64,000 nucleotides of DNA, taken from contig JAULBX010030486.1 in the NCBI GenBank assembly GCA_032358255.1, positions 62,001 through 126,000 on the forward strand. The letters run 5' to 3'. The position numbers and the translations under genes were made by a program. The stretch comes from Heterotrichella gracilis. Its lineage: Eukaryota > Sar > Xanthophyceae > Tribonematales > Xanthonemataceae. Position 1 is the stretch's first letter. Each line of letters begins with the position of its first letter. Below the pieces are notes generated by a model that saw only the letters and a list, made by a program, of their open reading frames with translations, did not search any database and was not told the origin of the DNA. Of this stretch, positions 4,695-57,866 are shown piece by piece.

Positions 4695-7126
4695 TTGTCA
4701 CGCTGCAGTGCCACGCACAGAGCCAGCAGCTTCCCCTCCTTCCACAAGCACTCAACCACCACCAGTCACCAGCGCACCTGCACCTACCTGCCCCTCCCCG
4801 CCAGGCTCTCTAAGGAGGGGACAGGCACCTTCAACCCGTCGGCGGTCCACCACCCGCGCCTGGGATGGCTGCTGTTTGCCAACTACGCCACCTGCCACTG
4901 GAAGACATGTGGTGTGGAGGGCATGAAGACGCGGCCGGCGGTGTTTGTGGTGGGCGGGGACAAGCTGCCCGACGAGCACAGTGTGCGGCGAGCGCAGGTG
5001 AGGCATGCCTGCCTTAGGGTTTAAGGTTGAGCGTTTAGGGTTTAGGTGGCGATCATGGGTGTGCAGCGAGCGCAGGTGACTCACCTGAGGTGAGGCATCC
5101 ACGCATTGAACCAAGACAGGTGGCAATCAGGGATGGGCAGCGTACTGCTGGTGACTGCATGCAGTGATATCGGCTGCTCCCACTGGGGTGGTGCCCCACT
5201 GTATGTAGCTGGTACACCCCTGCATGTACCCACCCAAAGCTTTCACTCGGGGGCATAATGGCACCATCCACGTCCGTCCTCCCCATTGGGCCCATGCATC
5301 ATCCTATGGGTCCCATGCAGCCACCCATGCCATGCCGTGCTTGGGTCCCATCACATGTCTCCCATGGACCACCTCCCCATGCCATGCTGGCCTTGCCCCC
5401 GCCCATTCCCATAGGCCCTTCGTGCCCACATCCTCACATGGGCCCCATGCATAACTCCCATGGGTCCCTTGCAGCCCATGGTGCCACCCACTGCATTAGT
5501 CCCATGCCATGTCACCACCCACTGTCATGAATCCCGTGTATCGTTTTCGTGGGTCCCATGGACAATAAGTACTGGTGAACTGCCCACGGCAGCATGTAAA
5601 ATATAAATGACGGTATCAATGAGGGACTTTAAAAGTGCCAAAGGCAACTCCCAGGTGAGACGGTTGCCGATCCCTGGGATGTGTGCAAAGAGCAACTTGC
5701 ACTCTAATTGCGCCACCCATACCCTTAGATCCATGCAATGTGGCTGCTCACTCCCTTTGATTCTATGCACCGCTCCCATGGGCCACGCATCAGTTGCAAC
5801 CCCCCCCCTTCACCCCTGCTGCCAGGTGGCGCTCTGGGATGTGTCCACCCGCACCTTTGACCATCAGCGCGACTGTGAGCGCATGACGCGGCCCCAGCTG
5901 TGCGGCACAGGAAAGCTGGAGCTGCACTCGGAGGACTACAGGTGAGCGGCGCCGGGGGTCTGCCAGGGGCTTGTGGAATGGGCGTTTTTTTCTAATTAAT
6001 TAATCGCTTACAACATTGCACCGCATGGAATTGTCCCGCATTGCGTCGCATTGTATTCACTGTGGCTGTCAGCATGCTGGCAATTACCTCTGCACATGCA
6101 CAATGTGGTGCACATGACAGTGGCCATACTTGCAGGCTGTTCCACTTCAACGGCTCCTTGTACGCCAGCATTATTGTTGTTATTATTGTATTATTATCAT
6201 TCTACGCCAGCTTGACCTTGGCCATTGGATATATTTACAAATATTAGGAAATGGAGGGTGTAGTGCATCCTTTTCTAATTAAACGTTACATGACCACGGG
6301 TGCGCATGCTTGCAGGCTGTTCCACTTCAACGGCTCCTTCTACGCCAGCATGACCCTGGCGCTGGTGCCCAACCGCCCGCACCGCACCGTGGTGGCCCTG
6401 GCAACAGCCGACTTTGCGACCTCCACCCTGCGCGTAAAGACCGTCTTCTCCGCGCGCTTCCGCTTCCCGAAATCCAGCACCAGCCTGTACAAGTGGGAGA
6501 AAAACTGGGGATTCGTGCAACACGGGGACCGGCTGCTGGTCTTCTACTCGGTGCTGCCCTGCACTATTGTGCTGGAGTACGCGCCGCACACCCCGGAGGG
6601 CCTGCGCTACTTTGCAGGCAGCTGCTTCACGGAGGATGTGGTGAAGCTGGATGGGGGTTCGTGCCGGGGCGGGGAGGGCGGGGCGGCGTTTTGGGACGCG
6701 AGGCAGTCGGGGCACCCCATCCCCTGGGGATCCTCCGAGTTGCTGCTGGTGTTCCACACGGTGCACATAGGCAAGGGGGGCGACTGGAACGCGGAGAAGT
6801 ACTACTGCCACTGGGGCGTGCGCCTGAGCACCGCCACCTGGAAGCCTGTGGCGATCTCGGCCTCGCCGCTCATCAAGAGCCACGACTATGCCCTCAAGGG
6901 TTTTCTGAAGGGCGCGCTGGTGGTGGGGTCGTACCACTGGCTGCCATGGGGGGAGGGCCAGCGGCTGCGGGTGTACCTGGGGGATGGGGACAGGCACCCG
7001 TGCTACGACGATGTGGATGTGGGATCGGTGGCGTGGCGCCAGATTGCCGACAAGGATTTTGAGGCGGTCCCGCCGGAGAAGTTCCGCATGCTGACGTCGC
7101 CTGGCAGTGGGGGATGGGGGGTGTAG
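4695..7126 (+). CDS. Five-bladed beta-propeller glycosidase/glycosyltransferase-like protein (GH130/GH43-type fold suggested)
   Basis: Three exons: about 4695-4997, 5826-5941 and 6316-7126, about 409 residues; phases close exactly (0, 2). The N-terminal blade has GTFNPSAV followed by GWLLFANY. The last exon has KWEKNWGFV, then VFYSVLPCTIVLEY, a glycine-rich SCRGGEGGAAFW segment, SSELLLVFHTVH, and a C-terminal blade with LGDGDRHPC. This order (FNPS; EKNW..VYS.LP..VL; RGG; L.VFH) matches the repeating-blade pattern of eukaryotic proteins annotated as glycosidase-like five-bladed propellers. Substrate is unknown. The start at 4695 is the first in-frame Met and may be wrong; no signal peptide is visible, so upstream exons may be missing. 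Intron 1 contains an echo of the exon-1 donor, and intron 2 an echo of the exon-3 acceptor. Confidence 0.62.
5280..5540. repeat. CCCATG-rich low-complexity tract inside intron 1
   Basis: About 250 bp dominated by irregular CCCATG, GGGTCCCATG and CCATGCC motifs. There is no fixed period and the tract is non-coding. It lies in the 828-nt first intron of the propeller gene. Confidence 0.55.
6129..6221 (+). repeat. Echo of the exon-3 acceptor and first codons (propeller gene)
   Basis: A 41-nt copy of the true junction at 6309-6350 (intron end TTGCAG plus the first exon codons, RLFHFNGS.YAS) lies 180 bp upstream in the intron with one mismatch. It is followed by an ATT/TTG simple-sequence insertion and then a second fragment (FYASLTLA) of the same exon edge. 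The copy carries a usable-looking AG acceptor but runs into stops. Confidence 0.85.
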
Positions 7127-14606: not shown

Positions 14607-17600
14607 TCACCGCACCGCCCTCCTCCCACCGCCCTCCTCCCCTCCCACCCGCGCGTCCCGCACCACCTGGGCGTACGCCCGCTGGCACCGCCCGGCAGCG
14701 CTGGCACCCACCTCCCCCACCGTGTTGCGCAGCGCGACTCCCCCGTGATCCGTCACTACCTTCCCCACCTGGCCGCGCAACCGCAGGTAGTGCTCCAGGA
14801 ACTTCAGTCCACCGTCCACCGTGCAGAAACTGGGGTGCAGGCGGGATGCGGAGGCCACCAGGCTGGCGCCAAGCAGGTAGAGGCTCTCTGCGCAGAGCGA
14901 GGTGACTGCCACGCACAGCATGAGGGAGGGGATGGGCCCTGGGGCGGGGGGCTGCGCCAGCGCGTCCGCCAGCAGGGGGTAGATTGGGGAGCGGGCGAGG
15001 GAGGGGAGGAGGCCGCGCGCCACGATGATGGCAATGAGGTTGGCGTCCACCTGGGGATGGGTGTGGGGATTCAAAGGGGGGCATTACATAGTGAGGTTGG
15101 CGTCCACCTAGGGATGAGCGCGGGGGTGCAAGGGGGTTGGTGTTTATGCTGCAGTGTTTAATCACCTAAGTAAGAACCTTGTATTAGACTGGCAATAGCA
15201 CGCAGACTGACACTTGCAAACATGCTCGCTAATGTGGCTGCATTGCTAGAATGCATGTCAAGGACTTGACTGACTAGCTGACAAACGTTTTGTCACATGG
15301 GACCAACTAGCAGCACACCTCCAGTTGCGGCTCCAGGGGTCCCATGAGGCGGTGCATGGCTGCGTCGCACAGGTTGTCGTAGGGCAGCAGCAGCGCAAGG
15401 GCAGCAGCAGGGCCTGCATGATGAGGGCACAGGACCGAGCTGGTTATTACAAAGTCCACTAACTTCCCTTTTACTTCTTAGATGTTTTTACAATAAAACT
15501 AAATTGGGGTACTTGGCACCCATACTAGGGTGCCTCCCGATTTGGTGGGCCATCACAGTTGCAGATGGCTGCTTTAGGGTGACAGATATATTGTAGACAT
15601 ACAGAGTGGCCATGAACGTGCTCGTTAGCGAGGGCAGAGGGGCTCTTGACATGTTGCCCGTTACAGGGACACCTGTTTCTGATCTGGCATCTTGCCCCCT
15701 GAAACCACACAGGAGAATACCTACGCCCACTAGTGCAGACATAGCCCGTCACAGTGCAAGTCTGGCCCTGCCGCATGTTTAGGGTTTAGGGTTATGCTGT
15801 GCCCCTCACCTGCCCCTGCTGCCTGTTCCACCTGCTCCACCAGGCGCTTGCTCTCCTGGGAGGTGAGCAGGAAGGGCTGAGGGTGGGGCAGGGGGCTGTG
15901 CTCGCCATGCCATAGGGTGCAGGCGGCATCCAGGGCCTGCAGGGGGCAAGGGGGAGACAATCTATGAGAGGGAGAGGAAGAGGGGAGAAGGGAGAGAGGG
16001 CGGGGGGGGACTGTCAGAGGCTGTCAGAGAGCACAGCAACTCAAGAGTTGGGGCAGCAGCACTGGAATTTCCCTGTGGGGATTGACATTGAAGAGTCAAA
16101 AATGGGAAAAGGTAGAAAAGCGCAACACAGATTCCGGGGCCATAAGGTGAAGTTAATGCATGGCCCACCTCCCTTGCTGTGCGCAAAAAATGTGCATGCT
16201 GCAGCAGAATTTTCTGATGCAATCAGACCGCCCACAGGGCTGTCCGCATGAATATATCAGAGCAACAGGGCTCATGCTGCACATTGATTTCCCCCCTCTC
16301 ACCTGGAAAACGTGGTGCATGTCCCCCTTGGCCACCATGCTGCCCATCAACGCACACCAGCACCCATGCAGCGGCATCACATCCTCATCCTCATCCCCAC
16401 CACTGTCCCCACCCTCCGCCTCGCTGCCACCCACGTCGTCCACACCGTCCAGACCACCACCGCCCCACCCGTCAGCCACCACGTCGGAGACATCCCCACC
16501 CGCATCCCCACTCCAGCCATCGCCATCGCCTGCCACATCGGCAACCGCATCGCTGGCTGTGATTGCGACACCTGGCGCAAGCGCAGCATCGGCAGGCGAA
16601 TCAGTGCCAGCCTCAGGCATCGGGCCATTGCTGCCAGGTGAAACCTCCCCGTGCTCATGCTGCCCGCTATCCCCCCGTGCAGCTTCCACAATGCCATCAT
16701 CCGCCATTGTCCCATGTGCAGCCTCTGCATTGGTAGCTGCCTCCTCATTGGCCAAGGGAGTCTGGGAGGGCGGTGCGGGAAGCACGGCCCCGCTCAGCCA
16801 CACATCCCCTAATAGGGTTTCCAGGGCTTGAAGCTGGTCGGTGGTGGTAGCTGAGTCCACCAGTTGCAGGAACAGCGCTTGTGCAGGCTCGATACCCTGC
16901 AACCAAAGGGTACTTAAGTGGGTACCACCACCAATGCAGACCCTGACCAAGTTTTAGCATGTCACCATGCGTGCTGCATAGATGCGATACACTTGCTGGG
17001 CGACGCAATAGAGGCCTTGGTTCAGCAAATGACACTCCATGGCCCAGTTTGGGAAATGAGATATGGCATTGGCACGAATGGAATGGATTGGAAAGAGGTT
17101 TGCTGATGCAGGGCCAGGCGCTGCGTACCTGCAGGTTTGCCAAGCTGATTGTGAGCTCCGGCCAATGGGGCTCAAGCAGCGCCAGTGTCCGGGTGCACAG
17201 CAGGGACTGGCTGAGCGCTGCCTGCACCGCATTGGAGGGAGGCGCCCATCCCTCCCAGGCGACGGCAGAACCCTCGACGGGGTTCTCATCAAACAGGTGC
17301 TTTTCCCCGATGCCCGCTAGGGAGCAGATGAGTTGAATGGCGCGCACATGCGCCTCGTTGGAACGATCCAGCGCAGCAGTGGTTTGCACGTAGCCCTGCA
17401 GCTGGTGCCACACCTCCTCCCGAAGGGTTTGCCTGAAGGAGGCTAGGGTTTCCTGGTCCGGGAAACCCTCGAGGATCAGCCCGGCAGGCAGCGGCACAGG
17501 CTGTGCGAGGCAGCGCGCAACGCCTGCCAGGTGGGTGTATCCATGTGAGCCGGAGGGGGAGTCGTCTTGGAGCGATGCCAGGATTGCGCCCATGGCGCGG

Positions 17601-20600: not shown

Positions 20601-23600
20601 CCAGCTGGACCTGCGCAGGGGTAAGTGTAGGGCAGGTTTTAGGGTTTAAGAGACATGCATGGCAGCAACGACAAGCCCAGAGTGAACACGGGCATGGATA
20701 GGTTTTGGGGTTTTTTGTCACAGGCACTGCAACATTAGCATCATGCCAGGCTAATGTTGCAGTGCATTAGCTGCAATGCTATTCCATGGCATCATGTTGA
20801 CGCATGTGAAACCCACGGAATTTGCCAATGCTGGGTTGTACAACTTTCAAGCTGACTAATGCCAGCATGCAATGGGCATGCCCAAACCCTAATGCCCCGC
20901 CACCACCTACCTCCAGCTTCTTATCCTCCAGGCCCATCAGCCCCGCCAGGTCAACCAGCCCCTCGACATCCAAATCATCCACTCGGCTGCCCGCTATGAT
21001 CTGCCCCACGATCTTCATCTTATCCCCAATCTGGCGCAGCTCAGCGGGCAGCAGGTGCAGCCCAAACAGGGGCAGCTTGTGCACAACCTCAATCACCGCT
21101 AGCTCCTGCTGGGCCTCGGGGTTGGCGGGCAGCAGCTTGAGGCAATCCCGCGCCTGGTCCAACGCTGCATCGCCCACAAACCAATTGGTTAAATGAAACT
21201 GCTGTGTAAACAAGCAAACAAACACATACATGTTTATTTAATTGGGTCATCCTGGGCTTGGTTTCAGGCAATCCCGCGCCTGATCCAGCACTGCATCGTA
21301 CAAACAATGCACAAGTAAACACACACAGCAATATTTGCCAAGAATGAAGGTGGGACAGGGGGTGGGTACATCTTGATGGTGTTTAGCTACTTGATTGTTT
21401 GCTTGTTGCCAGGCTATACAAATTTCAGTATACATCCTGACACTCTGCAGCCTGTCCTCAAACCTGACAAGGAGACGGCAAGAGAAAGCCACTGCCCTCT
21501 TGCCCACCAGGCCCCCTACCCACCTGGATCGTCCAACTGATATGCAGAGTAGAGGAAATCGCGCGCCGATCTGAGGACGATCGCATCAGATGATTGGCAG
21601 TCCTTGAGGTAGGCTTTGGCCAGGTTGAGCTGCCCCGCGCTGAGCAGTGCGCTGCACACCTCCTCAAGGATCTGCTGGCGGGGGAGGGAGGCAAAGGCGG
21701 TGGCCCGCATGTGGTACAGGTCGTCAACCAGCTCCGACCACCTGCAACGGGGACAGGACATGAGGGTAAAGCCAGGGTACACAGGTAGGTGCCGGGTGTA
21801 GGGCTTTCCACCCAAAACCCTAGACCCTTATAACACCCCAAACCCTAAACATCTCCTCCAAGATATGCTCGCAGGTGGCGTTGCTCAAGGGGTGTGCTCG
21901 TCAACCAGCCACAGCAACAAGTGAACAGATCTGCTGCTTTCAACACCATCCTTGAACACTCCCCCCACACACCCCGCCTCCGCCCCCACGTACTGGCTCT
22001 TGGTGGCCTTGGCCTTAGCCCTACTCGCCCTGGCCAGCACCAGTTTGACCACTTTCAGCGCCTCCTGGCCATCGCACTTCTTCAGCTGGACCAGGCTGCA
22101 TGCCATGCTGTGCTTGGTGAGGAGCTGGGCTGCGCGCACGTAGCCCTGCGCCTGCACAGCGCGCATGCGGACCAGGGTAAAGGATGCAGTGTGTGAGGGG
22201 GGATGGAAGGGCGGGACCGGATCAAGGGCTGATATTGTATAATAGGAGGGGGGCGGAATTGTGTGGGGTGGGAAGGGAGGCAGCTGTTGGGAATGTCTGT
22301 GGAGGGCGTCCCCGAAAGAGGGCATGGGGCATATGTGGGGGTATAGGAATTCCTAATAACCTTTGTGGTCTACATGTATGGCTGCAATGCATTTACCTAA
22401 GCAAGAAGGGGGTTGCCTACACAGCTGTGTGGGTATGTTGCAAGGTAGTTTAACCACGTGCCAGGGGAGTTGTCCAACCCGCGGCTGATATCCGTGCATG
22501 TGTGTGCGGAGGCTTTCAGCCACACGCCAGTGGGGGGCTAGGCGGGTGGATAGTTGGCCTCCGGGAGAGGCAGGCTGGGTACTGAATATAGTAGCAGGTG
22601 GGCGGGAGGTATTTCCGTATATAGGTAACAGGCCGTGGGATGTAAAGTAGCCAGTGTTTGGTGATTCCCTCTGCCTAACGATCCAAACCTTTCCAATCCA
22701 ATCAATCCAACACTTTTCATTCCTCCTACCTGTTTGATGTCCTCTGCCACCTGGCCTGCATCCTCGCGGGCTGCCCCCTCATCCAGCTCGTGCTCCCAGG
22801 AACCACCCTGGCCAAGCTCCAACGCCTGCACATAGGCAAGTGGGGTGCTTTGATGACCAATGAATGCTTTGATCAACATTGAAGCATTTAAGTGTTCATG
22901 GGGAGGTTTGACATCTGACAACATATCAGAAAATATCCCGGAGAACAGTGGTGCTGTGTTTGCATGCGACTGGCAAGCATAATACCAGGCACAAGTGATG
23001 CAAATGCAGCGTTGCATGAGTTTCCCATTAGTGTGCGTGACAGATTTCAGTCCTAAGAGTACACCGTAATTTCTGTTTCTGAACCCACCTTAGCACCTGT
23101 CTCCAGCACCTCGCCCACCACATCCCATGCCTCCCCCCCTTGATAGGCGTAGGCAGATGCCACTGCTGCTGAGGCAAGCTCGAGACCACTGCCAAACACC
23201 TGCGGGAGGAACACACATGGGTGGATAAGAGGTTTAGGGTTTAGGTTCCCTTTCACAACAACGCTCAAACAGTTATTGACTGCAACAGTTTTGAAAGGAG
23301 CCATGGCCAGGGGCTGTTTAGCGTGGCAGCAAATAGATGTACACAACAATGGGGAACACTGGGCTGGGGTAGGGATCTCACTATCCGCTTACAAGAAAAC
23401 TGCAATCCACATGCAGTGAGTGGTGATGCATGACACAGACTTCAGAGATTTAGGCACCGTCTGTTAAAAGCTTGCAGCATGCAGCATGCACCACACTACA
23501 CCACACCACACCCCTTCAAATCTCTCGAAACCCATTCCCAAATCCCCACCTGAAAGCCATTCTCCAGGTCCATCTCCAGCAGCTGGCAGCACCACACCAG

Positions 23601-36753: not shown

Positions 36754-39700
36754 ATGGCACTTCAGCAAGCCACAGATCCTGGACGCGTGGGTGTGGTCAA
36801 CAGCGTTGGAGCCAGCAGTGCAAAGGTGCAGCAGGGGAGGATAACTCTGTCTGACAAGACCGAGCAGCTGTTGCAACGTATCAGACCGGCCCAATACGTA
36901 GAGGAGCGTCGCTACAACGTTTACCAATATGTGAGGAGCCTCATCGTCAGATGCTTCCGGCCACAATGCGAGGTAAACACCGTTGGGTGGAGCTTGTTCA
37001 GAGCAGTGGACGGCAGGGGTTTCTCACACGACCGTTCTGCAGGTGGAGGCGTTCATGTTTGGGTCGGTGCCACTCAAGACATACCTGCCCGATGGCGACA
37101 TAGACATATCCGTGTTCCAAAGCAGTGGGCCTGCCCTGAAGGACAGCTGGACCAGCAAGCTTGCATACTGGCTTGAGCAAGAGCAGAGGAACCCGTCAGC
37201 GCCGTTCAGGGTGCGGGACGTGCAAGTGATCCATGCGGAGGTACGTTGTGCCAGCTGGGGTCCATATGCATGCCAAAGGGTGGGTGGACGAGGCTCACTG
37301 TGTGGCGGCCCTTACAGGTGAAGCTGCTCAAGTGCCTGGTGGATAACGTTGTGGTTGACGTGTCCTTTGAGACGTACGGTGGGCTGTGCACGCTCAGCTT
37401 CCTGGAAGCCATAGACAGGGAGATTGGCCAGGAGCACAGTTTCAAGAGGAGTATCATCCTGGTGAGTGGCACATGGTTGACTTTTAGCATGCAGGCATTC
37501 TTGGGCCTTTCGATTGGATATGAAGCCTATGAAACCTGCGATGCAGGTGAAAGCCTGGTGCTACTATGAAAGCAGGCTGCTTGGGTCCCACCATGGCCTC
37601 ATGTCCACATATGGCCTGGAGACGCTCGTGCTGTACATTTTCAACCTGTACCACAAGCAGCTCAAGACACCGCTGCAGGTAACGTACCTCTACTCACCAT
37701 TCAACCTGCAGTGTGGAGAAAAACCCTGTGCAACCCACCGCTGACACACAACATGTGTGCCTCCAGGTGCTGCACAAGTTCCTGCAGGTGTTCAGCCAGT
37801 TTGACTGGGACAACTACTGCGTCACCCTGCAAGGACCCATCCTCATCGCCTCGCTCCCTGCGCACAAAGGTATGGATACGTGACCCCAGCTGCGCAGCAG
37901 CATACCACCTAGCTTGCACCAGTCCATGCATTATAAAACTGGTTGCGCCAGTGGTGTCACTGGGGTCGTTCACTTGGTGCAGTGGAGCTTCCGGATGACT
38001 GCGGTGGGGACCTGCTGCTGCGGCCTGAGCTCCTCGCAGAGCTGCTGCAAAAGTACACCCCCCAGCAGCACGGCAACCGGCCGCTCCCCCTCAAGTTTTT
38101 GAACATTGTGGACCCGCTGCTGCCCAGCAACAACCTGGGGCGCAGCGTCAGCAAGGCCAGCTTTGCGCGCCTGCGGCGCGCCCTCCAGCATGCTGCACGG
38201 TCACTGGGGGCGATCATTGAGAAGGTAATGAAATGTGTGATTGTGTTGGGCACCTCGGCGTCTTGGTGCAATGATTGATGCCCGCATGGGGTTGATGCCC
38301 ATCAGTGGGATGTGGCTCGCATACGTGTCTGAATGCGGCATGCTCTTCTGCAAAAATGTTGGAGCATGCTCGAGAGGGCCATGGAGGTTGCACGGCGGGC
38401 AGCATGGTTGTGCCAGTAGTTTGCAATGGCATGCCATGCGTAAAGAGGGACAATATATATGGAGGCCACTGGGTTTGCACTCACCGGCATCTTGTGAACC
38501 ACGGGAGTGCATGGCGCGCCACCACTGTTGGTGGATGCATCGCACAATGGGGGCGGTGGCACCCGGAAAGTTGCTTTTACCAGTGCTTGAGCCAGTGGTG
38601 CATTTTGTGCACAGGGTGAGAGTGAGGAGAGCCCTGCAACCCTGGACTCGTTCTTTAAAAACACCCTGCAAATGCTCAAGGCCAAGGCCCTGCAGCGGCG
38701 GGACTACCCATCCACCGGCTATGCCAGCAGCAGTGCCAACAGCGCCCGCCAGTACTCAGGGATGGAGACCTCTACCAGTGTCAATGCCCAATACCAGGCC
38801 AGCCTGCAGCACCTGCTGCAGCAGAACACAGGTAGTTTTAGGGTTTAGGGTTTAGGCTCTTCTGCATGCGCCATGCATTGATGAGCCTACAATGCTAAGT
38901 CTATTCCTGGCCTCATGCCTGGGCATGGGAACACCCTGCACATTTATCGGTGGCGGGCAACTGCTCAATATATGCAGCTGCATCATGCATGTTGGTGCAT
39001 GGGCATGCATGGCAACTTGTCCAGAGCCTCTGACACACCCCCTCCCATGCGCCCTCCTCCAGGGCTCAGCATGCAGCTGCTGCACCAGATTGCTGAAAAC
39101 CAGGCACGCCAGCACCAGCAGCACCAACAACAGCAGCAGCAGCAGCAGCAGCGCAGCTCACAGCAGCGGGGCGGTGCCGATCCCTCTGCCGAGCAGGCGC
39201 AGCATGTGGCGCGGCAGGGGGGCTATGGCCAGCAGCAGCAGCATATGGACCCCAGCGCCATCCTGGCTGCGGCAAATGCGGGCGCGCAGTACGCCAGGGA
39301 CCACCCGAGCGCCTCGCGCGCCATGCTGAATGGGGGCCGTGGCTATCCCCAGCAAGGGGGGTTGGGGGACCGCGCTTCCGCGCAGCAGGCAGCGGAGGAC
39401 AACCTGCTGAACCTGTACGCCAAGCCGCAGGCTACACAGGCGCGCAGGCCGGAGGCAAACGGGGAGCTGCATCATCGCAGTAGGGCAGGGGAGGTAGCCA
39501 GGGATGGCTATGGCCGGCAGGACAGCCCCGCAGGGAGCTTCGAGGTGCCTTATGGGACCAGTCGTGGGACGGGTGCCAGCCAATCAACGCATGCCACGCC
39601 AGCGAGCAAGCCCGGCTCCTCCAACGGTAGCTTAGACCAGCACAGCAGCAGCAAGGACAGCATCCCTGTGCCTCGCCCTGTGCCGCAGGCGTCGACGTCA

Positions 39701-44831: not shown

Positions 44832-47800
44832 ATGGACGCCACCAGCTTGCTAGGCGGCAGCACACAGGCTGGCCGCATATGCAGGCCCAAGCAGCAGGCG
44901 CCGTGCGCCCTGCCAGTGCCCGCAGCACGCTCCGCAGCCCTGCAACTAGGTACGCACGGCTAGCCCGCTGTGTTTCCATGCCACATGTGCGCCGAGCGCA
45001 ACCATCCTGCTATGTGCAGTTCCGTTAGTCACGGCACGGGACAAGGGCAGTCGCCCACCTTAAGGTGCACACGCCACTGCTGGGACCCAGCTGACCCTTA
45101 TTTCTTGCTTCTTTTGTCACAGGGAAGTCTGGCAAGAGAGTGAGCCGGGGCCTGCGCAGCGCCAACCGTGGATCTGCCTCGCTCCGCGTCGCAGCACAGG
45201 CGGCCGTGCTGGATAAAGGTATATATCGTTTGTAGTTTTCCCAGGCTCACGTGGCGCCACAAACAGCACCTTCCTGCACAGGGCGTTGTTTTACAGGGCT
45301 TGACAAAGCTGTCCTGTGGCAATTGAACTCGTGGGCAGGCTTGGTTTGTGTTGTGACAGGGGCTGCCCTGGGGTGGTTGGGGTGGGTTGCCTTGTGTACC
45401 CAAAGAATAAAGCCGTCCAGCTACAGCTCGTGGGAAATTGCACTTGAATATGTGTTTGTTTTACAACTCTTCTGTTGGTCTTCACCCCTTCTCCCTGTAT
45501 GATATGTGTTAGGGTGTGTTGTCCCTGTATGCCAGGTGATAGTTGTGTGTGCTGTCACAGCTACAGCTGCAGCTGCTGACTGCAGTAGTCGGGGCTGTGC
45601 TGCACCACAGCTCCCCCGGTCACAAGTGTAGTGTCCTTGCTACTGTTCATAGCCCATGTAGAGTGGGCACCGGCTATGACACGTTGCCAAGCCCTTGCAG
45701 TGCCCCACCCTGTGACATCCCCCACCCGCCCACCCACCCCTCCCCACCCCCCACCCGCAGCCGACGCCTCCACTGCAGTGGGCGACTGGGTGACCCGCAA
45801 TGACATGCGCAACATCGCCATCATTGCCCACGTCGACCACGGCAAGACCACCCTGGTGGACGCCATGCTCAAGCAGTCAAACGTGTTCCGCGCCAACCAG
45901 GTCATGGAGGTGCGCCAACACAGTGGTTTCACAAAAGGAAATATCATGTGCAAAACCGCCATGCTGCCTTACCAGCAGCCAGTCTTGGCTATCGGGCGGG
46001 TTTTCTTGATACCTGCTTCTAACCTTTTATTAACACTGTTGCACTCCTAGGCTCGAGCAGTCGAATATGTTTTGCGCTACCCAAGCCAAGGGGCCAAGTG
46101 CTTCAGTGAATGGTCAAAGAAGCACCGGTTGCCTAATTAGTGAAATAGTTGCGTAGGTGCATTCTGCTATGCAGGAAAGTCAGCAGTGATTGGTGGATAT
46201 ATGGCACCAGGCAGGCTTGTCTTGACACCGCTTGGGACCACACCTGACTCTTGCGAGCCTGAAGGTTCTTATAATCTATCAGATGGCTACACGCGTGCCA
46301 CCAGTACAGCGATATCAGCAGTCTCACTGCCCAGTGTGCGCCATTCACCGCACCCAGGTGGTTTGCCAAGACAAAGGTGGTTGCGCCTGGTTTGTGGGGT
46401 AGGGTTGTAAATGCTGGACTTCACAAATAACAGGACTTCAGAAATAACAACCTGTTGCACCGTACTGAGCGGGCGAGCCCATGCGTCCAGGTGCGCATCA
46501 TGGACTCCAACGACCTTGAGCGGGAGAGGGGTATCACCATCCTGTCCAAGAACACAGCGGTGCGCTTCAAGGGCACAAAGATCAACATCATCGACACCCC
46601 TGGTCACGCAGATTTTGGGGGGGAGGTGGAGCGCGTGCTCAACATGTGTGACGGTGCGCGGCGGGGCTTAAGGTTTAGGGTTTTAGGATTTAGGGTTGGG
46701 GACGGGGGGGAATGTGGAGTGCGTGCTCAATATATATGATGGTGCGTGGCGGGTGGCGGGGTGAGGCGGGGTGGTGACGGATTGGGAGACAGGTGTAATG
46801 GATGTTGACAGCCATGGCGTCACGGGTGTGCGTGGGGATCCACAATGGGTGCAAATGGTACCCTGCCCATGTTGCACTAAAGTCAAGATTTTGGTAGCTA
46901 GATTACCAAAAATTGCCATCTTTTAACTTCACAACAACAGGAAGATTTAAAGAACAGTCCATGCCATGGAGGAACTGCAATGCATAACCCCCCTTCTCCC
47001 CCTCCAGGTGTGCTGCTGCTGGTCGATTCTGTGGAGGGCCCCATGCCCCAGACCCGTTTCGTGACCCGCAAGGCCCTTGAGCTCAACAAAAAGGTGATTG
47101 TGGTGATCAACAAGGTGGACCGCGACGCTGCCCGGTGCGACTGGGTCATCGACCAGACCTTTGAGCTGTTCATGGACCTGGGGGCGACTGACGAGCAGTG
47201 CGGTAAGGGTTTTTCGACGTACACCCTAAATTTTAAACCCTAAACCGTTTGAGCTGTTTATGGACGAGGGGGCAACTGAGCAGTGCGATGAGGGATATTT
47301 GACTTTAAAAACCCTGAACAAATTATTTCCCTTGGAGTTGTTCTCAAATTTGGGGGGTGCGGATACTGTGAAGTATTCCCAGTGTCTGTACTCATTGGGC
47401 CTGGAGCTTAGTTCCGAATCCCAGTCATTTGCCCTATATTTACGCAATTTTCCCCCACCTGCAGATTTCCCAGTGGTGTACGCCTCTGGTCTGAACGGCA
47501 TTGCGGGCCTGGAGGGGCCTGACCAGCTTGCAGAGGACCTTGAGCCCCTATTTGATGCAATTGTCAAGGAGGTGGCGCCACCACTGGTGCGTGGGGGTTG
47601 GGTTGGGTGGGGGGTGGGACAAAGGGGAGGGGTGCTGGAACAGGATGTGGGGTACCGAGGGTGTTGGGGATTGTGTGGGTGAGGAGGGCGGTGGGCAGCG
47701 GTCCAAAGAGCGGCACATCTGACCGCGTATGGCACTTCACTAGTTACAGAGTAATGTGATACCATAATAAAGCGACAACAGCGGTACATGCCAGTTGAGG

Positions 47801-50800
47801 GTTTTTCATCATTTCCCCTGTTTATATCATGTCGCCAGCCCCTGTTTTCCAGGTGCGCATGGACAGCGGCCTCTAGCTATACACACGTATAATTTTGCCT
47901 GATTTTCCCAGGTTTAATGTCGTCCATTTCCCTTGTCCAGGTTCGCATGGACAGTGGCCTCTAGCTGCGTAAATGCATCATTCCCCCTAATTCCCCCCTT
48001 TAAATTGCCATCACCCCCCGTCATCCAGGTGCGCATGGACAGTGGCCTGCAGCTGCTGGTGACCAACTTGGACTTTGACGAGCACAAGGGGAGAATCGCC
48101 ATCGGCAGGATCACATCGGGGTCGGTGAAGAAGGGGGAGAGCGTGGCGGTCATGCGCGAGGGTACGTCAGGGGGTTTTAGGAATTATTGCGGTGTGCAAG
48201 GGGGAGAGGGTGGAGGGATGCTGCTGGTGCTTAGGGTGTAGAGTTGTGGTCGTGTTTGCACGCGAGGGGATGGGCTGGAGGGTATGGTAACCACAGGCGC
48301 AGTCTTGAATGTTTAGGGTTTAGGTTTAGGTTGTTTGTAGAGAACCATTGGATGACACACCGCAACTGTGCGCCGCCACCAATCGAGAATGCGCTCGGAA
48401 CACCTCCATTGTCACTCACCATCACACATCGCACCCACCACACCCACCCACCACACCCACCCGCAGCAGTCCCTCACGCACTCACCCACCCATCCACCCG
48501 CCCTCATCCCCCACTCCCCCCCCCACACACCCGCAGGCGACGCCAAGCCCCGCACCGGCACAATCGCCGAGCTGTTTGTGTACGACAACTTTGCGCGCGT
48601 GCCTGTGGACAGCGTGGATGCGGGTGACATCTGCGCACTTACGGGCCTGCCGGACGTGTCCATTGGGGAGACGGTGTGCGACAGGCAGAGGCCTGAGCCG
48701 CTGCCCACCATTGAGGTGGGTCTAGTGTTTGGCATTTGGGAGTTAGGGTTTGGGGAGATGTTGGGGAGACTGTGTGCGACAGGCAGAGGCCTGAGTTGCT
48801 GCCCACCATCGAGGTGGGTTTTGGTTCTAAACCCCAAACTTTAGGGTTTAGGGTTTGCACATGAGAGGGTGTAGGGTTTGGGAAGGTGTGCGGGGTGGAA
48901 GAGGGTGTTGGGGAGAAGCCCGAAGGGAGGCGGGTGTGGTGGAGGGCAACATCACTGGCACTGGACTGCGACGTGGTTTGATGCTGATGTGCTTCAGCAT
49001 ATTCAGAGCAGGTTAGGCTGGATGAGCTGAACACATTTTATTGCATGTATTTATTATCTACGAGGCAATTTGTTAAAAGGAAATTATGCAGGTGGCTGGC
49101 CAACCACCGGTCGCCCCTTCACCCAGGCAGCTAACCTCCCGTCTGTCCCTGCAGGTCGAGGAGCCCACTGTGCGCATGGAGTTCCTGGTCAACACCTCGC
49201 CCTTTGCTGGCCGCGAGGGCAAGTTTGTGACCTCGCGCAACCTGAAGGAGCGCCTGGAGAGGGAGCTGGAGCGCAACCTGGCGCTCAAGGTGGGTGGTTG
49301 ATCAGGTGTAATCAGTTGTCACTAGGTACTGATCTGGAGCGCCTGGGGAGGGAGTAGGTGCTTGATGGGGTGTAATTACAAGGAAACAGGTGCAATGACA
49401 ACTCATCGGGTGTATGCACTGCGCACTCTGGCGATCATGTGTGGCTGTGGGACCACGTGGAATGGTCCACCGTCATCAGACAGACAATCAATCTTTCACC
49501 CTCATCAACCAGGCTGATCAGGCTATTCCTCCTGCAGCCCGATTACCATCTACTCTTGTGTTTCTCCTCATACAATAAACCCCTTGTGCAGGTTGAGCGC
49601 GGTGAGACAGCCGATGCCTTCATTGTGGCTGGGCGCGGTGTGCTGCACATCTCCATTCTCATGGAGAACATGCGCAGGGAGGGATTCGAGTTTGGCGTGG
49701 GGCCACCAAAGGTACGATCAAGGTGTAGGGTGTGGGGTGCATAACTTGGGGTACTTTCTGCATACAAGAAAATTGCTGAACCATGGTCATCATACGTGCT
49801 GTACCTGCCCTGCCCTGACCTGTTCCGCTTAGCAATGGCGATACTAGTCACCCCACCCAACCCCCACCGTAGGTTACCCAAAACCCTGATTCATAACCCT
49901 CATGGAAACCCTAGCTAAAGCCCTTGCCACCCTACCGCAGGTGCTCACCAAGATGATTGAGGGCAAGAACTGCGAGCCAGTGGAGGAGGCGGTGATCGAG
50001 GTCTCGGAGGAGTACGTGGGCCAGGTGCGCACAAAACCCTAGATCCCTAGTATTCAAATGTACATGGCTAACCCTAAGGGTCTCTTGAGCCAGCCTGTCA
50101 TATGCCACCATGGCAACCGGGTCACTCCCTTGACTTCACTACCACGCCGCCCCCTTCATCACCCCACTTTCCCCCACCCATCCCTTCTAACCCTAAATCC
50201 CAAATCCCCACCCCCCGCAGGTTGTGGACCTCATGGGCTCCCGCAAGGCCCAGATGATGGACATGAGCACCAACGGGGATGGCGCCAACCGCCTCAAGTA
50301 CAGGATCCCCACCCGCGGCCTGCTGGGATTGAGGAACGCCATGCTCACCGCCACCAAGGGCACTGCGGTGCTCAACACAGTGTTCCTGGAGTATGCGCCC
50401 TGGTTTGGGGAGCTGAGCATGCGGGAGAACGGGTCCCTGGTGGCGCACGAGACTGGCACGGTGGGTGGGGTGGGGGTGTATGGGTGGTAGGCGGCGCGCC
50501 AGGGGTTGTGGTGCTGGGTGGTGCTGCGCTTTTATTTGGCAGGGAGTGGAGTGGGGATGGATTAGGCGGAAAACGCGATGCAGGCACTACGAGACAAATA
50601 TGTGCCAGCAGTTTTCATTCAACACTACAGTGAAACTCAATAGAAACTTCTTCCAGGGACCTCACCTGGACCCTATACAGCAATGCTGCCCCAGCACGAA
50701 TGCCACCACCGCCCTCCAAACCCACGCACCGCCCAAAACCCTAACCCTCCACCCACAACCCCTCCAGGTGACCGGCTACGCCCTTGAGTCGTGCCAGCAG

Positions 50801-51673: not shown

Positions 51674-53413
51674 GCACCCGCAGCAGGGGAGAATTGTTAT
51701 CTAGCCCGTAACCTAGAATTCCGGAAATTGACTGATGCCGGGATGCAGCAATTCTTGGAGAGGAGAAATGGGGTACAGTTTTAAGCGCTTGTTTTTTTTG
51801 GGGGTCGGGGGCCCAGTCGGCGATGGTGGGGCCACATGGGGAGGGGGGGTGCGGTTGCAATTCCTATATCGATTGGGGGCATGCTCGGGTGGGTCGACGT
51901 GCCGCTCAAATGCGATGTCAGCGATTTTACAGTTGATCTAATGCATGTGTTTGTCAATGCGCCATCCATATGTGTATGGAGGAAGCACATGCTGGCAGGC
52001 CAGGGCGGCTGATAGACGCGGACCATGTACGCACTGCTATCTCGTTGGTTTGGGTACCCAGGGGTTGTGGTATAAGTGACTGGGGGGGGGAAACAAGGGC
52101 AGCTAGGAACCCTTCACTTGTGGGCAATTCTACTGCACTGGTGCTACTGTAGAGTGGGGCATCCTGTGCGTGCGGATCGGCACCGTGTCAATGAATGGGG
52201 GGTGGTATTCACTTGTTTTTTTGCATGATGTACCATTTTTTTCCGGGGGCCCCTAGATTTGTCCATTTTATCTCTATTTGGCAGGAACACTTGGCAAGAT
52301 TGGTGGCAAAAGCTGTTTCGCCTAAAGGTTTAGTTGCAATTATGGTAGGGTGTTGTGGCATTCGTTGCAGCTGCAGACAGCCACTCCCTTGTCAAGTTTG
52401 ATCATAATTATTCTACAAATGAATGACGTTGCATAAAGCTGGCATTGTTCGTGCACATGGTGTGCATATATTGCCCATGATGCGGTACTGATGACATCAC
52501 ATTGTGTGCACCCAATGGTACATGTTCACGTGTTAGCTTTGAAGTTCACAGGAATATGTCCACGGAATATGTGCACATCATATTTTTTTGGCATGACATG
52601 CACAGTCCCTGTGTAGTGTTTAGCATTACGGGAGTGCTTGACACTAGGTGCCTACTGACAATGTCATGGCACAGTTTGCAGTTGAGAGGATGCAAACAAC
52701 CTATACGGTGCAGTATATTTATGCCGTTCATACACCTAGTCTAGCTGTATTTTACAATCAATTGTAACAACTTGCAACATGACCTTGTCACACGGTGTCA
52801 CGAAATTAAACGGCAGCCGCTTTCAAACAAACAAAAGGCATTCCCAGCCGTCATCAGCTTATTTGCCTTGTGTGCCCCTGAAGGGCACACATTAGGGACA
52901 CTAAGTCCACAATGGCTTTCAGTTGTCAACTGGCAGAACCCTTCAACAAAATAATGACAGGAATTCTCAAGAATACTTCAGGCAGTAACACTGCTTGTTA
53001 CAATTATAAGAATTATTCGTAAGTTTATTGTCCTGAGGTACAGTGACCATGCGTTCCAGTCCCTGGGACATAATCTTTGGTCTATCAAAGCGTTGTCCTC
53101 ATCACGGTTGTCACATGATCGATCACAACTGGTTGCATACTCATCCTCACAAGGCGCTAGTAGAGACATCACGGCGCGCGATGGGAAAAGCAACAACTGC
53201 ACATGCAGGTCCCTCGATTCAGGAAGGGTCCTGCCATCACAATGATGTGCGAAGGTTGCCCTCTCTCCCTTGCACGCGCCGCTGCCAGCAACGATTAACT
53301 ATCATTGAATCATCAATTGAGCGTGCCACGAGGCCCCCACCCCCAAACCCTAAACCCTAAACACAAAATGCAGGCAACTTGACGGTCTATGAACAGCTAT
53401 CAGCAAAGCCTGT
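51674..53413. other. Convergent intergenic region, 1.7 kb
   Basis: Tail-to-tail spacer between TypA and the unknown 469-aa gene. It has no protein-like ORF. A TGTAA signal occurs near 52765. A CCCTAAACCCTAAAC stretch lies at 53345-53362, just past the stop of the minus-strand gene. Confidence 0.5.
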
Positions 53414-56400
53414 TCACGTCTGGTCTCCCCCCTCCTCCGCCTCTTCCCCTCCCACCCCTTCTCCTTCTGCCTCCGCCGGGAGCTCCCCTTCCCCATCCCC
53501 TCCTCCCTCCCCCTTGCAGCCTTCCCTGGGGCCCGGGCAGCGCCCCTCCTGGCACGCAGCACTGCCGCAGCGCACCTGGTGGCACCCCTCGCACAGCGAT
53601 GCGTCCAGGTCCAAGGCCTGGCATTTCCCGCAGGTGATCCGCTGCAGAAACCCCGCGGTGGCCAAGGAATGAGCTTCACTCACGGCGCGCTTGCTTGCCT
53701 TCAACTGCTCCATGAAGGCAGGGTCCCTGCAGGCACATGGTTTAGGGTTTGGGATATTCAACTATTAGGGTTGAGGGTGAAGGGCTAGGATCCAAAGTTG
53801 AGGGTGTAGTTTTCATGGTAGACTTAGGGTACAACTTTAGGCCCCCAACGCCCACACCACACAATTCATGCAAACCCCAGCAATACCCTAGCAGAACCCT
53901 ACTCACTTGGTATAGTCCGGCGGCAGCTGCATGAACACATGGACGTGGGCCTCCAGCGCAACCACCACAAAACCCTTGCAAACCCTAGCAATACCCTAAC
54001 AGAACCCTACTCACTCGGCATAGTCCGGCGGCAGCTGCACGAACACATGCGTGTGGGCCTCCAGCGCAACCACCACAATACCCCTTGCAAACCCTAGCCA
54101 AACTCTTATTGCTCGGCATGGTCCGACGGCAGTTGCATGAACACATGCGCGTGGGCCTCCAGCGCAACCACCACACAACCCTTTGCAACCCTAGAAAAAC
54201 CCTTACTCACTCGGCATAGTCTGGCGGCAGTTGCATGAACAGGTGCGCGTGGGCCTCCAGCGTAACCACCACAAAACCCTTGCAAACCCTAGCAACACCC
54301 TGGCAATACCCTAACAGAACCCTACTCACTCGGCATAGTCCGGCGGCAGCTGCATGAACACGTGCGCGTGGGCCTCCAGCGCCACCAGCGTGCCCCGCAA
54401 GGTCGCCTGGTTGAAAGCGCATAGCTTCCGCTCCGCCAGGAACAGGCTGCCCAGCTCCTTGAGTGTGCGCAGGCATTCGTCCCCCTTGCGCATCAGCACA
54501 CGGAGCTCCTGCACAATGGGTTTAGGGTCCATGGTTAAGGGTCAGTAAAAAAGGTTTAGGGATGGGTTTATGAGCGCACGGAGCTCCTGCACAATGGGTA
54601 AGGGTTTAGGCTCAAATTATGTAAGTAGAACAATTGGGTGACACCTAATTAGGTGTAAAGTTTAGGGTTGTAACTAACTACACTGAACAGATTCAGGGTG
54701 AAACTTTTACGGTTCAGCACACAAGAGATCTGCTCGCAGAGGCAATGTCTTCTCATTTGAGGATATCAAAACCTTTTTAAATGGGTAAGTGCTGCAAGGT
54801 TTTCACAATGTATGTCACAGGGGCTTGGGGTTGAGCACCCACCTCTATGTCCACCCGCGTCCCCTTCGCCTGTGTGTAGAGTTTAGTTGAGGGCTTTGTA
54901 GGGCTCAAGGTTGAGAATTAGGGGTTTAAGTGTTTCGGGTTTCAGGGCCCACCTCTGTGTCCAGCCACTTCCCTTCCGCCTGTGTGTAGGCTTTTAGGGT
55001 TGAGGGCATTTTTCCTTTAGGGTTTAAGGTTTTGGAACCCCACCTGCATGTCCAGCCACTTCCCATCCGCCTTCGTGTGTCCGCTCATCATGGCGAGTAC
55101 CAGCTCCCACACAGCCATGCACAGATACACAGGGTCCTCACGCCCAGGGGCCTCGCACATGCTGATGATGTGTCGCAGGCTGGCCACGCTCACTGCAGGG
55201 AGGGGGCAACCCAGCAAAGGGTTTGTATCATCAGGCAGGCTGTGAGAAAGTTCAGTAAATGGACTGTTTAGGGTTTAGGGTTCTTTGGGGCTGGCTCCTG
55301 GCAGCATATTGTGTTGAACAGGAATACCTGGCGTTTGCTACGTTGGTGAATGCATCCCTCTGGAGGCACACATGTGATGTAAATGTAATGTTAGGGTGTA
55401 GGGTTTAGGGTCTGGGTTGTGGCCCACCCACCTTCCGGCCCTTCCAGCATCTTCTCTGCCTGGGCGTAGATGAACCAGCCATAAGCGTTGTCCATTTGGA
55501 GGTCCATCAGGGACCCTCCCGCTATCCACAGGCGCCTGCCGATAGAGGTGTTTTCCTTGGCTAGGTACAGGGCGCTGTTGGCCAGCATCACCGAACTCAC
55601 CCACTGCACCTATTAACCAACAAGGAAATGTATGTCTAGAAATATAAAATGGCTTAAAGTGAACGGGGCATTCGTCAAATGATGGTAGGATGGTGGGGTA
55701 TCCATGGGACCTCTTCCAAACCCTTACAAGGTTTCCGAAACACTTCCAAAGTCCTTCCTAGGGTTCCCCAGCGCATGTAATGCCATGTGTCTGGAGGTGA
55801 CCCTAGCAGGGTCAGGGTTATGCTAAGTATATTATGTACACTGGTATACTTCTAATATTCGAAGTATACCCCTGGCAGGGTGTTGCAGCACGCACCTGGT
55901 CCCACGTGATGCCATACAGCTCCACAGCCGGTCGTGGCGTTTTCTTGGAGGCCTCATGCACGAACATCCACACCCTATCCGCGTCTGCAGCAAAACCATG
56001 AAATAATTAGGGCAACTGATCATGGAATTCTACGAAGAAACCCTTTTACTAACTTATTTACTTGCGTTCCGCAGTATAGCCAGATTAACATGAGGAATGT
56101 GGACAAGGTGATTAGCCACATGCATATGAATACCAACATCCACACCAGTACTCGCATGGATATGAACAAGGACACTGCCAAAAACAGGCAATAAGTAAAA
56201 GCATATGCACATGATCATGATCACCACCGCGACCACCCCCCTTCCTCCCCTCCTCCCACCAGCTTCCTGTGACATGAGTGCAACCTTAACTGGTACCTCC
56301 CCTGCACATGAACTCCGCGCCCACCCCTGGCATCCCCCCCTGCACATGAGCCATGACCCCTGCACCCCCTCCCCTGCACATGACCCCTGGTACCCCCCCT

Positions 56401-57866
56401 GCACACCCGCACGCACTTTGCATCAGCTCTGGGCGAGGCCGGCCGCATGAAAGCAGGATGCACTCCGCAGTCCCGAGGGACACAAGGCGCAGCACCTCCT
56501 GTGCCCAGTACTCCGGATTATCGCGCACCCCTTTCTTGTCTGGCGAAGCAATGCGAGTGAGCTCCTCGTCTGCCAGCGCATGCAGCTGCAGGAAACGGGG
56601 TGTGGGGTTCAGGGTTTAGGGTTTAAGTTTTGGGGTCGTGCAGCTTGCAGGAAACGGTGTGCAGGGTGTAGGGTTTAGGTCGTGCAGCTGCAGGAAGTAG
56701 GGTGCAGGGTGTAAGTATAGGGTCGTGCCGCTGGAGCTAATAAGCTTTTATGGTTGGTGAGTTCCTTCACCTGCTAGGAAGTTACACGCTGACATGAAAG
56801 AGTGTAGGGTTTAGGGTTTGGGTCCAGGTACGGAGGCACATTAGGGACCCTCCTGGACACACTCCAGGGTGTGCACTTCATTGCGTGTGTGTCAGCCAAA
56901 TTCTGGGATCACGAGAGGGCACATTCCAGGGGATGACAAGATGCCATGTCATCCTACACATAGCATACCCCTGCAACCAAAACCCTACCCCTGCACCCTA
57001 TCCCCAAAACCCTCCCCCCCCGCGCGCACCTTTCTGGCGACCTCAAAGTCGACCTTGGCGCCGTCCCAGCCATAATCCGCCTGCATGCTGCGCACCAACA
57101 CATACATATTCAAGAATCATATTCAACAATCTCTATATGTTCTTATATAAATTTGCATATGATTTTACCGTAATTCCCGTGTTGGGTAAGGATAGGCACT
57201 AGCAGGAAAAGGTGCATGCATTGCCCTTCTCTGCCCCCATGCACTTCATCAAGCATTGGTGGTATTAGGCAAAAGAAAAAGTATATATTCATGAATAAAT
57301 TCATGGAAAATGGGTATTCATAGTTACTCCTCTTACCTGCGCAGCAGCAAGGAATACACGTGCATGGAGTGTTCAACAGACGGCTCCTCGGGTAGCTCCT
57401 CCACTGCCTGTGACAGCTCCTGGCGCAGGCGCACGGCCTCCAGGCGGCCAGCGGTGCGCCCTGTGTGGCCCTCAGGAAGGGGCTGCATGGCAGGGGGAAG
57501 GGGGGAGGTGGAAACGGGGAGGAAGGCGAGGGAGGGGAGGTGGAAACCGGGGAGGGGGGAGGGGGAGGTGAGGGTGGGTAGCCAGTTGCCTGTCGTCCTT
57601 TTAACGGCGTTTGATTGTTTTCATTTCATGCTGGCTGTGCTAGAGGGCCTTCATGCGTGTGGTTTCACCTTATAGCTCCAGGTTGTCGCTGCTTATTAGG
57701 GTTCGAGGTTTACTTCCTAGGGTTTAGGATGTCGCACCTCCTTCCTCACTGGCGCCAAGCCCTCCTCCCCAGCAGGTGCATCCTTGCCAGGCACCACAAG
57801 CTTGAGAGTGGTTTCACTGTCGGTCCGCGAGTAGGTAAGGAACTTAAACTGCGAAGAGGACTTCAT
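53414..57866 (-). CDS. Unrecognised helical protein with C-terminal cysteine cluster, 469 aa
   Basis: Nine exons: 57866-57738, 57482-57337, 57087-57030, 56585-56417, 55984-55896, 55609-55432, 55192-55044, 54508-54330 and 53726-53414. Sum 1410 nt, phases close exactly. It opens MKSSSQFKFLTYSRTDSETT and continues as a largely helical, Leu/Ala-rich protein (EYWAQEVLRLVSLGTAECIL, NAYGWFIYAQAEKMLEG, KLCAFNQATLRGTLVALEAH). Near the end a compact cluster CGKC...CEGCHQVRCGSAACQ could bind one or two zinc ions. The last 40 residues are Gly/Glu-rich and probably disordered. I do not recognise the family; the Cys spacing is not a standard RING, and only loosely MYND-like. No signal or transit peptide is seen. 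Introns after exons 7 and 8 and before exons 4 and 8 carry exon-edge echoes, including a five-copy array. The final donor could be in any of several array copies (all give the same phase). Confidence 0.8.
53905..54382 (-). repeat. Five-copy tandem array of an exon 3' edge plus donor
   Basis: The 3' end of exon 8 (VALEAHAHVFMQLPPDYAE then GTGAGTAGGGTT) and the first part of its intron recur as five units of about 100 bp: true copy about 54316-54382, then about 54214-54262, 54117-54170, 54013-54069 and 53905-53960. Four of the five keep a GTGAGT donor; one reads GAGCAATAAG. Intron parts of the unit contain CTAGGG, TTAGGG and GGGTTTGCAAGGG, degenerate telomere-like sequence. Confidence 0.92.
54497..54600 (-). 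repeat. Echo of exon-8 acceptor edge (469-aa gene)
   Basis: GCACACGGAGCTCCTGCACAATGGGT at the true junction (acceptor at 54509) recurs at about 54577-54600 as GCGCACGGAGCTCCTGCACAATGGGT. Several TTTAGGG motifs lie in and around the spacer. Confidence 0.85.
54836..55085 (-). repeat. Three copies of exon-7 donor edge (469-aa gene)
   Basis: The exon-7 end (KADGKWLDMQ and donor; plus strand CCACCTGCATGTCCAGCCAC, 55040-55085) recurs at about 54948-54995 and 54836-54885. TTTAGGG and TTGAGGG motifs lie between copies. Confidence 0.88.
56578..56705 (-). repeat. Three copies of exon-4 acceptor edge (469-aa gene)
   Basis: The plus-strand block GCAGCTGCAGGAAACGGGGTG at the true acceptor recurs at about 56640-56662 and 56680-56702, each followed by GTGTAGGGTTTAGG or a similar sequence. 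Confidence 0.85.

Follow-up and report, generated by a model that had tools for sequence, protein, structure and literature searches.

Tandem duplication across an intron-exon boundary has been described in the potato RdRp gene, where a second, 83-bp duplication is intronic (PMC4974935), and tandem genomic duplication and break repair are both among the intron-gain mechanisms listed in the accessible part of PMC3443670. The same source cites Daphnia, in which new introns gained by repair of staggered breaks are flanked by short direct repeats. Here we analysed 64,000 nucleotides of the xanthophycean alga Heterotrichella gracilis (contig JAULBX010030486.1 of assembly GCA_032358255.1, positions 62,001 to 126,000), referred to below as the window, and found that exon edges, or exon segments near them, recur in the neighbouring introns of five genes, encoding a propeller protein, NBAS, HslV, TypA and a SMYD-like protein of 469 amino acids. 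We consider it reasonably probable that these copies come from local tandem duplication across exon-intron junctions, tolerated in introns and linked to telomere-like repeats. What the sequences show is that the copies are direct and local, exceed a random-placement null at junctions, look neutral and go with telomere motifs; the repair mechanism behind them is inferred.

As far as the available text of the potato report goes (PMC4974935), the two cases are alike in that the junction is crossed, the splice signals are carried along and the copies have diverged by substitution. The potato duplication concerns one gene and produced a new intron and exon, whereas here dozens of introns are affected, the copy seemingly lies inside an existing intron and telomere-like repeats are present. 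The Rogers model, in which an intron arises when an exon segment containing AGGT is duplicated in tandem, shares with our observations the local tandem duplication of exon DNA and of splice sites, but here existing introns grow and no new intron arises between two AGGT copies, at least as the model is outlined in the part of PMC3443670 at hand. Similarly, direct repeats from break repair with inserted DNA recall the Daphnia introns mentioned there, although in H. gracilis 17-120 bp of exon are repeated (gapped pairs), the source lying at the exon edge and its copy within the intron. From what these sources offer in their accessible parts, junction-crossing duplication in a single gene is known already, and its spread across many introns and the telomere link seem to be new. 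The sequence-only reading that preceded this analysis had held that the combination lacked any named description, which was too strong in view of the potato gene (PMC4974935) and the listed mechanism (PMC3443670); for junction-crossing duplication as a common genome-wide intron feature, or for a telomere link, no description was found in searches of an open-licence library.

The sample comprised 334 kb of the 68.5-Mb, 903-contig genome, namely the window (contig C794), 200 kb of C2 and 70 kb of C13. Direct repeats were sought with an ungapped scan for partners at most 800 bp apart, with a complexity filter, and three third-order Markov (Markov-3) sequences served as controls. Thirty pairs of local direct repeats were detected in the window, an array of five copies accounting for 10 of them, and the controls contained 0, 0 and 0. 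At 15 window junctions the exon edge, or exon sequence close to it, had a copy (2 in the propeller gene, 5 in NBAS, 1 in HslV, 4 in TypA and 3 in the SMYD-like gene), where the sequence-only reading had spoken of more than fifteen in these genes, and there were weaker matches at 19 of 24 bases too, e.g. at 5119 and 28401. All five example pairs that it had quoted were present.

For the edge test, 24-base windows were placed at set distances from the junction and counted as recurrent when found in the same intron with at least 20 of 24 matches. This test, the flank test (62 cases), the spacer ends, the telomere coverage of copy-bearing introns and the splice-site retention refer to the window and C2. 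Exon-edge 24-mers recurred in their own intron for 25/293 donors (8.5%) and 17/295 acceptors (5.8%), and in the introns of other genes in 0/879 (donor) and 0/885 (acceptor) cases. The recurrence peaked at the last or first 24 bp of the exon; windows 48-120 bases into the exon gave 0-2% and those further into the intron approximately 2%, and the difference between edge and intron windows was significant for both donors (p = 5e-7) and acceptors (p = 7e-4). When all repeats of the 334 kb were grouped, 74 of 112 clusters joined an exon edge or exon to an intron, 18 were intron-intron, 13 intergenic and 7 exon-exon; omitting the complexity filter gave 123 clusters (76 junction, 22 intron-intron, 13 intergenic and 12 exon-exon). 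The ratio of junction to intron-only clusters was 13:2 in the window and 56:12 in C2. A gapped search of 472 introns yielded 86 cases of junction type, 11 intron-only and 4 exon-exon, and a stricter definition gave 70:11 for junction to intron-only, so that 70-86 of the 472 introns (15-18%, stricter and looser definition) hold a copy of their own exon edge or exon. Unit lengths clustered at 80-98 bp (23 of 106 clusters). Local repeats were direct in 193 cases and inverted in 10, with the complexity filter applied to the direct list only, and the claim that copies keep to the same strand was thus borne out; that they resemble only their own junction was borne out by the counts in other genes. 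As a separate observation, intron-only tandem repeats were often of short unit, below 40 bp in 8/18 (in C2 and C13 introns), and often contiguous, covering at least 0.9 of the offset in 10/18 as compared to 9/74 of the spaced junction copies.

The individual copies in the window are as follows. In the propeller gene (+ strand), the donor edge of exon 4709-4997 (4981-5012) is repeated at 5059-5100 after a TTTAGGG-like spacer; this pair falls under the repeat threshold, yet is clear by eye. The acceptor edge of its exon 6316-7126 (6305-6351) has an upstream intronic copy at 6125-6171, at an offset of 180 and 96% identity. In NBAS (- strand), three acceptor edges have intronic copies: 15035-15079 at 15092-15136 (offset 57, 84% identity), 21140-21172 at 21266-21298 (offset 126), and 24932-25021, consisting of 85 bp of exon and 5 bp of intron, at 25086-25175 (offset 154, 93% identity). 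An NBAS segment whose end lies within the exon, 28 bp from the donor (24211-24246), recurs in the intron at 24121-24156 (offset 90), and a donor edge of 69 bp of exon with GTG, 26069-26140, recurs at 25862-25933 (offset 207, 97% identity), a copy kept as a model exon despite its repeated peptide. The HslV donor edge (+ strand, 31443-31472) is 100% identical to its intronic copy at 31532-31561 (offset 89), with a CCCTAAA-rich spacer in between.

In TypA (+ strand), the donor edge 46617-46665 is copied at 46705-46753 in the intron, an exon segment ending 11 bp before the donor (47160-47191) at 47248-47279, and the acceptor edge 48024-48056 at 47936-47968, each at an offset of 88; the last has a second intronic copy at 47848-47878 (offset 176). 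The 88-bp offset is identical in these three different TypA introns (46617-46753, 47160-47279, 47848-48056). The fourth TypA junction, a donor edge of 53 bp of exon with GTGGGT (48663-48721), has its intronic copy at 48761-48819 behind a TTAGGG-type spacer (offset 98, 93% identity). The five-copy array belongs to the SMYD-like gene (- strand): the donor edge of exon 54330-54508 and adjoining intron (54297-54387) are followed by four intronic copies at 53855-54296, each containing exon edge, donor and CCCTAA-type filler in a unit of 98-108 bp, and the GT is lost in one of them. In the same gene the acceptor edge 54495-54521 has an intronic copy at 54573-54599, and the donor edge 55039-55072 has two (54838-54879 and 54948-54989, together spanning 54838-54989), both modelled as 27-bp exons.

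The exons underlying these counts came from an ab initio gene finder, a self-trained GT-AG hidden Markov model; two earlier versions over-split exons, which was cured by minimum intron and exon lengths. It gave 47 genes with 396 introns in the window and C2 and 17 genes with 102 introns in C13. By reading of the translations, the models recover TypA, NBAS, HslV, FtsY, EMC3, a poly(A) polymerase-like protein and others, and Pfam matches confirmed HslV (Pfam Proteasome), adenylate kinase, a decarboxylase and a DUF819 protein. The chloroplast TypA was closest to proteins of Micractinium, Chlorella, [Myrmecia] bisecta, Trebouxia and unnamed environmental proteins (approximately 71-75%, among the best 120 matches listed); judged by this protein, the genome would be that of a green alga close to Trebouxiophyceae. 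A clean-up rule dropped exons of at most 75 bp whose length was a multiple of three and which copied a neighbouring exon; it was applied before the edge counts and again before the classification of repeat clusters, and removed 13 false exons, among them the propeller-gene copy at 6125-6171, modelled as a 24-bp exon, and only the second of the two 27-bp SMYD-like exons. Some false exons were left, such as the NBAS copy 25865-25945, scored as exon-exon, and TypA 48886-48972, and extra peptides were read in the adenylate kinase and decarboxylase models; such leftovers blur the intron lengths and some junction counts. Elsewhere in the window, a CAG-type repeat at 39110-39168 codes for a glutamine-rich run in the poly(A) polymerase-like gene, and a 151-bp TTATCAT heptamer array of 23 copies abuts the single assembly gap of 100 N at 62976-63075 (62825-63075 including the gap).

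Telomere-type repeats are above background at the duplication sites, as an association. Telomere 6-mers covered 4.8, 5.3 and 2.8% of the introns in the three sequences, as compared to 0.7-0.9% of exons, 1.9-2.9% of intergenic DNA and a first-order Markov (Markov-1) expectation for introns of 1.6%. In the 40 introns with copies at 20 or more of 24 matches, coverage was 16.1% in the spacers, as compared to 8.0% in the remaining sequence of those introns; across all further introns, with C13 among them, it was 3.9%. In a paired comparison of 38 introns the spacer exceeded the rest in 24 and fell below it in 8 (p = 0.007). At the same matching threshold, with one case per junction and spacers of at least 30 bp (n = 42), a telomere 6-mer lay within 25 bp of the two spacer ends in 18/42 and 20/42, as compared to 10.2% of random intron 25-mers. 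The claim that spacers often hold TTTAGGG or CCCTAAA agrees with these results, a telomere 6-mer being found in 39/65 spacers and in 31% of length-matched random intron segments. Counting telomere 7-mers, which gave 13.1 per kb for introns with an expectation of 0.8, was rejected as a measure, as it counts runs repeatedly and overstates the effect; coverage is the fair one. Both strands are represented: of the 1446 telomere 7-mer matches in introns of the window and C2, 841 have CCCTAAA in the sense direction. The C13 introns are less telomere-rich than those of the window and C2.

Among the cases whose spacers were read (36/62), several pairs had telomere motifs both in the spacer and in the flank beyond the copy. 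Where both hold motifs, the telomere repeats may predate and provoke the duplication; in other pairs, e.g. C2 89654, the motifs occur in the spacer only, as if inserted with it. In mammals, interstitial telomeric insertions at breaks are linked to telomerase, and the part of PMC2246262 available to us gives target duplication at 6/130 rodent and 4/25 primate sites; telomere-type repeats at internal sites and a sometimes duplicated target are shared with our case. For plant telo boxes a telomerase model has been proposed, and in Arabidopsis they prefer 5' regions and are less frequent in coding sequence and introns, with more in the first two introns (PMC3022908, accessible part). Unlike both, as far as these partial sources show, the motifs here are concentrated in introns and between duplicated exon edges.

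As to what was duplicated, homology ran past the splice site into the intron in 34/62 copies (18/36 donor, 16/26 acceptor; p < 0.05 with the flanks of other cases as null), and reading of the flanks revealed gapped homology in several further copies. The duplicated unit is thus contiguous exon and intron DNA in at least about half of the cases, and in the SMYD-like array exon edge, donor and filler recur as one unit. Copying confined to the exon side was demoted to a rival because so many intron flanks are homologous with gaps. In that alternative the segment truly ends at the splice site: something aware of the junction would set the breaks, for example U1 delimiting an R-loop at the donor, or nicking where exon-bound factors end, and repair would add telomeric filler. 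We regard it as rather unlikely, and know of no enzyme activity of this kind. Several results nevertheless weigh in its favour and against tandem duplication placed at random. Of 15 gapped pairs with at least 90% identity, 13 had no homology beyond +10 of the intron, as if the splice site delimited the unit, whereas simulations with uniform decay ended there in 0/9 and in 0.16 of 19 close pairs (0-16%), with junction to intron-only ratios of 0.8-1.2. This ratio was 0.8-1.3 in all simulations with random placement and uniform decay. The observed 74:18 exceeded the 1.15-1.31:1 simulated for random tandem duplication with selection and decay (p = 1.4e-6), as did the window alone (13:2, p = 0.015), and for offsets of at least 40 bp the count was 73:10; the peak at the exon edge itself points the same way. 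Furthermore, 24/28 ungapped junction pairs (at least 93% identity, offset at least 40) covered less than 0.6 of the offset, as compared to 0.30-0.75 in the simulations. The settings of these simulations, i.e. the acceptance rules, a constraint of 0.3 (0.15 in one run) and the age range, were the analyst's choice, and those for the gapped search were small, with 55-68 junction detections per setting.

A null with fast intron decay, in which indels in native intron are 20 times those in exon-derived DNA and substitution is 1.5-fold, came close to the data: 68% of pairs ended by +10, and the junction to intron-only ratio of 4.0 was not distinguishable from the observed 6.4 (70:11; p = 0.09). Some close pairs also end within the exon, short of the junction, which does not fit a segment delimited by the splice site. 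The junction preference may therefore be, partly or wholly, a matter of visibility, with exon duplications selected away and exon-derived DNA recognisable for longer. This needs an intron indel rate of approximately 20x to account for both bias and ends, whereas the indel ratio of the SMYD-like array is ordinary by reading. Copying aware of the splice site therefore keeps a low probability, with much faster decay of native intron nearly mimicking the bias. The C13 sequence showed the effect more weakly, with 2/83 donors and 1/85 acceptors in the edge test and a junction to intron-only ratio of only 5:4. The claim of duplication at junctions holds in part: the peak at the exon edge is genuine and the junction excess outdoes a fair null, but the unit often runs into the intron and the fast-decay null is near. 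Were junctions the actual target, splicing-dependent structures at the exon edge would be broken, their ends extended with telomere repeats and the edge copied, and introns would grow by repeated capture, a scheme to which we assign a low probability.

The fate of the copies bears on whether they serve as exon edges. Across 61 pairs of exon and copy, the first, second and third codon positions differed at 65/792 (8.2%), 48/795 (6.0%) and 124/784 (15.8%) sites, and there were 5 in-frame stops in 747 codons of the copies and none in the exons. From sequence comparison the copies look neutral, with a pattern near the estimate for a neutral copy of a constrained exon, the excess of third-position differences being slightly above this rough estimate. 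The splice dinucleotide was kept in 26/32 donor copies (GT) and 17/20 acceptor copies (AG), these being the 52 of the 62 cases with at least 20/24 matches, and 18/32 donor copies scored at least as high as the real donor, the site taken as real in the models being the outer one, contiguous with the exon. Most copies thus carry decoy splice sites, as had been claimed. Selection for alternative or constitutive exon edges would agree with this retention, with the third-position excess and with the at least 13 copies that the gene finder placed in frame as small exons. It is nonetheless very unlikely, as the retention is about that expected from the divergence, the stops are about as many as estimated for neutral drift, and frequent offsets, 88 among them, cannot be divided by three. 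The open frame and coding-like substitution expected of selected alternative exons were not seen in the 61 pairs, and the alignment of TypA to bacterial BipA, gapless at the 48.7-kb junction when two model exons are omitted from the translation, leaves no room for extra peptide. Introns with copies were longer than those without (median 393.5 and 266 bp), a point on which, as on the local and direct nature of the copies, the sequence-only reading is supported.

The Rogers model would likewise explain direct exon-derived copies within introns, and in one case, near 196917 of C2, the sequences around donor and acceptor agree at 16/20 bases; as a general cause it is largely refuted and highly improbable, because in-register donor and acceptor copies occurred in only 1/464 introns (0/456 in the null) and, in the cases listed, a good distance separates the copies from the opposite splice site. 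The C2 pair 127851-128108 was rejected as an in-register intron of this type, since its 104-bp direct repeat actually flanks one exon: model exon 127870-128023 is exactly as long as the offset (154 bp), and both of its edges carry a copy. An artefact of assembly or gene models could be suspected from the ab initio exons, the remaining false exons, the one 100-N gap in the window, and the 5/74 junction clusters with a 100% identical best pair, all 23-37 bp. We give this little credence, as most copies differ by 3-20% and therefore are not repeated reads, homology supports key genes (TypA, HslV, adenylate kinase, decarboxylase and DUF819), and the edge result stands without the exon clean-up (22/300 donors, 17/304 acceptors). 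Introners, or other transposon insertions, affect many introns per genome, as here, and insert-like spacers do lie between direct repeats. According to the accessible part of PMC9860276, introner copies are alike between genes, whereas ours match their own gene only, and the repeated exon stretches are far above the 3-9 bp quoted there for introners. The spacers that were read are telomere-like or simple DNA with no shared element. Insertion of this kind is contradicted by the data and has the least to recommend it, and in this respect the earlier judgement against transposon-type introners was sound.

Under local tandem duplication across junctions, a unit of approximately 50-220 bp, mostly 80-98 bp, would be duplicated directly, containing part of the exon, the splice site and some adjoining intron. 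The gene would survive because the exon-side splice site still works, and the second edge, the decoy site and the spacer would turn into extra intron; the duplication would be tolerated because the duplicate is spliced out, and duplications inside exons would be purged by selection. For the donor or acceptor in use we infer the outer one, and exon definition may be the natural reason for its winning. Afterwards the intronic copy would drift neutrally, and the native intron part of both copies would decay faster, by substitution and indel, leaving the exon-edge copies visible longest. The unit or its breakpoints would be associated with interstitial telomere-like repeats, and the likely source may be error-prone repair or replication slippage at such repeats, or telomeric filler during break repair.

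Intron length evolution is mostly explained through transposons. The 15-18% of introns with a copy suggest that tandem duplication across junctions has commonly lengthened introns and supplied decoy splice sites in this alga. Each young copy is a natural test of how the spliceosome chooses between two near-identical sites, so that exon definition can be tested directly in an alga rich in introns.

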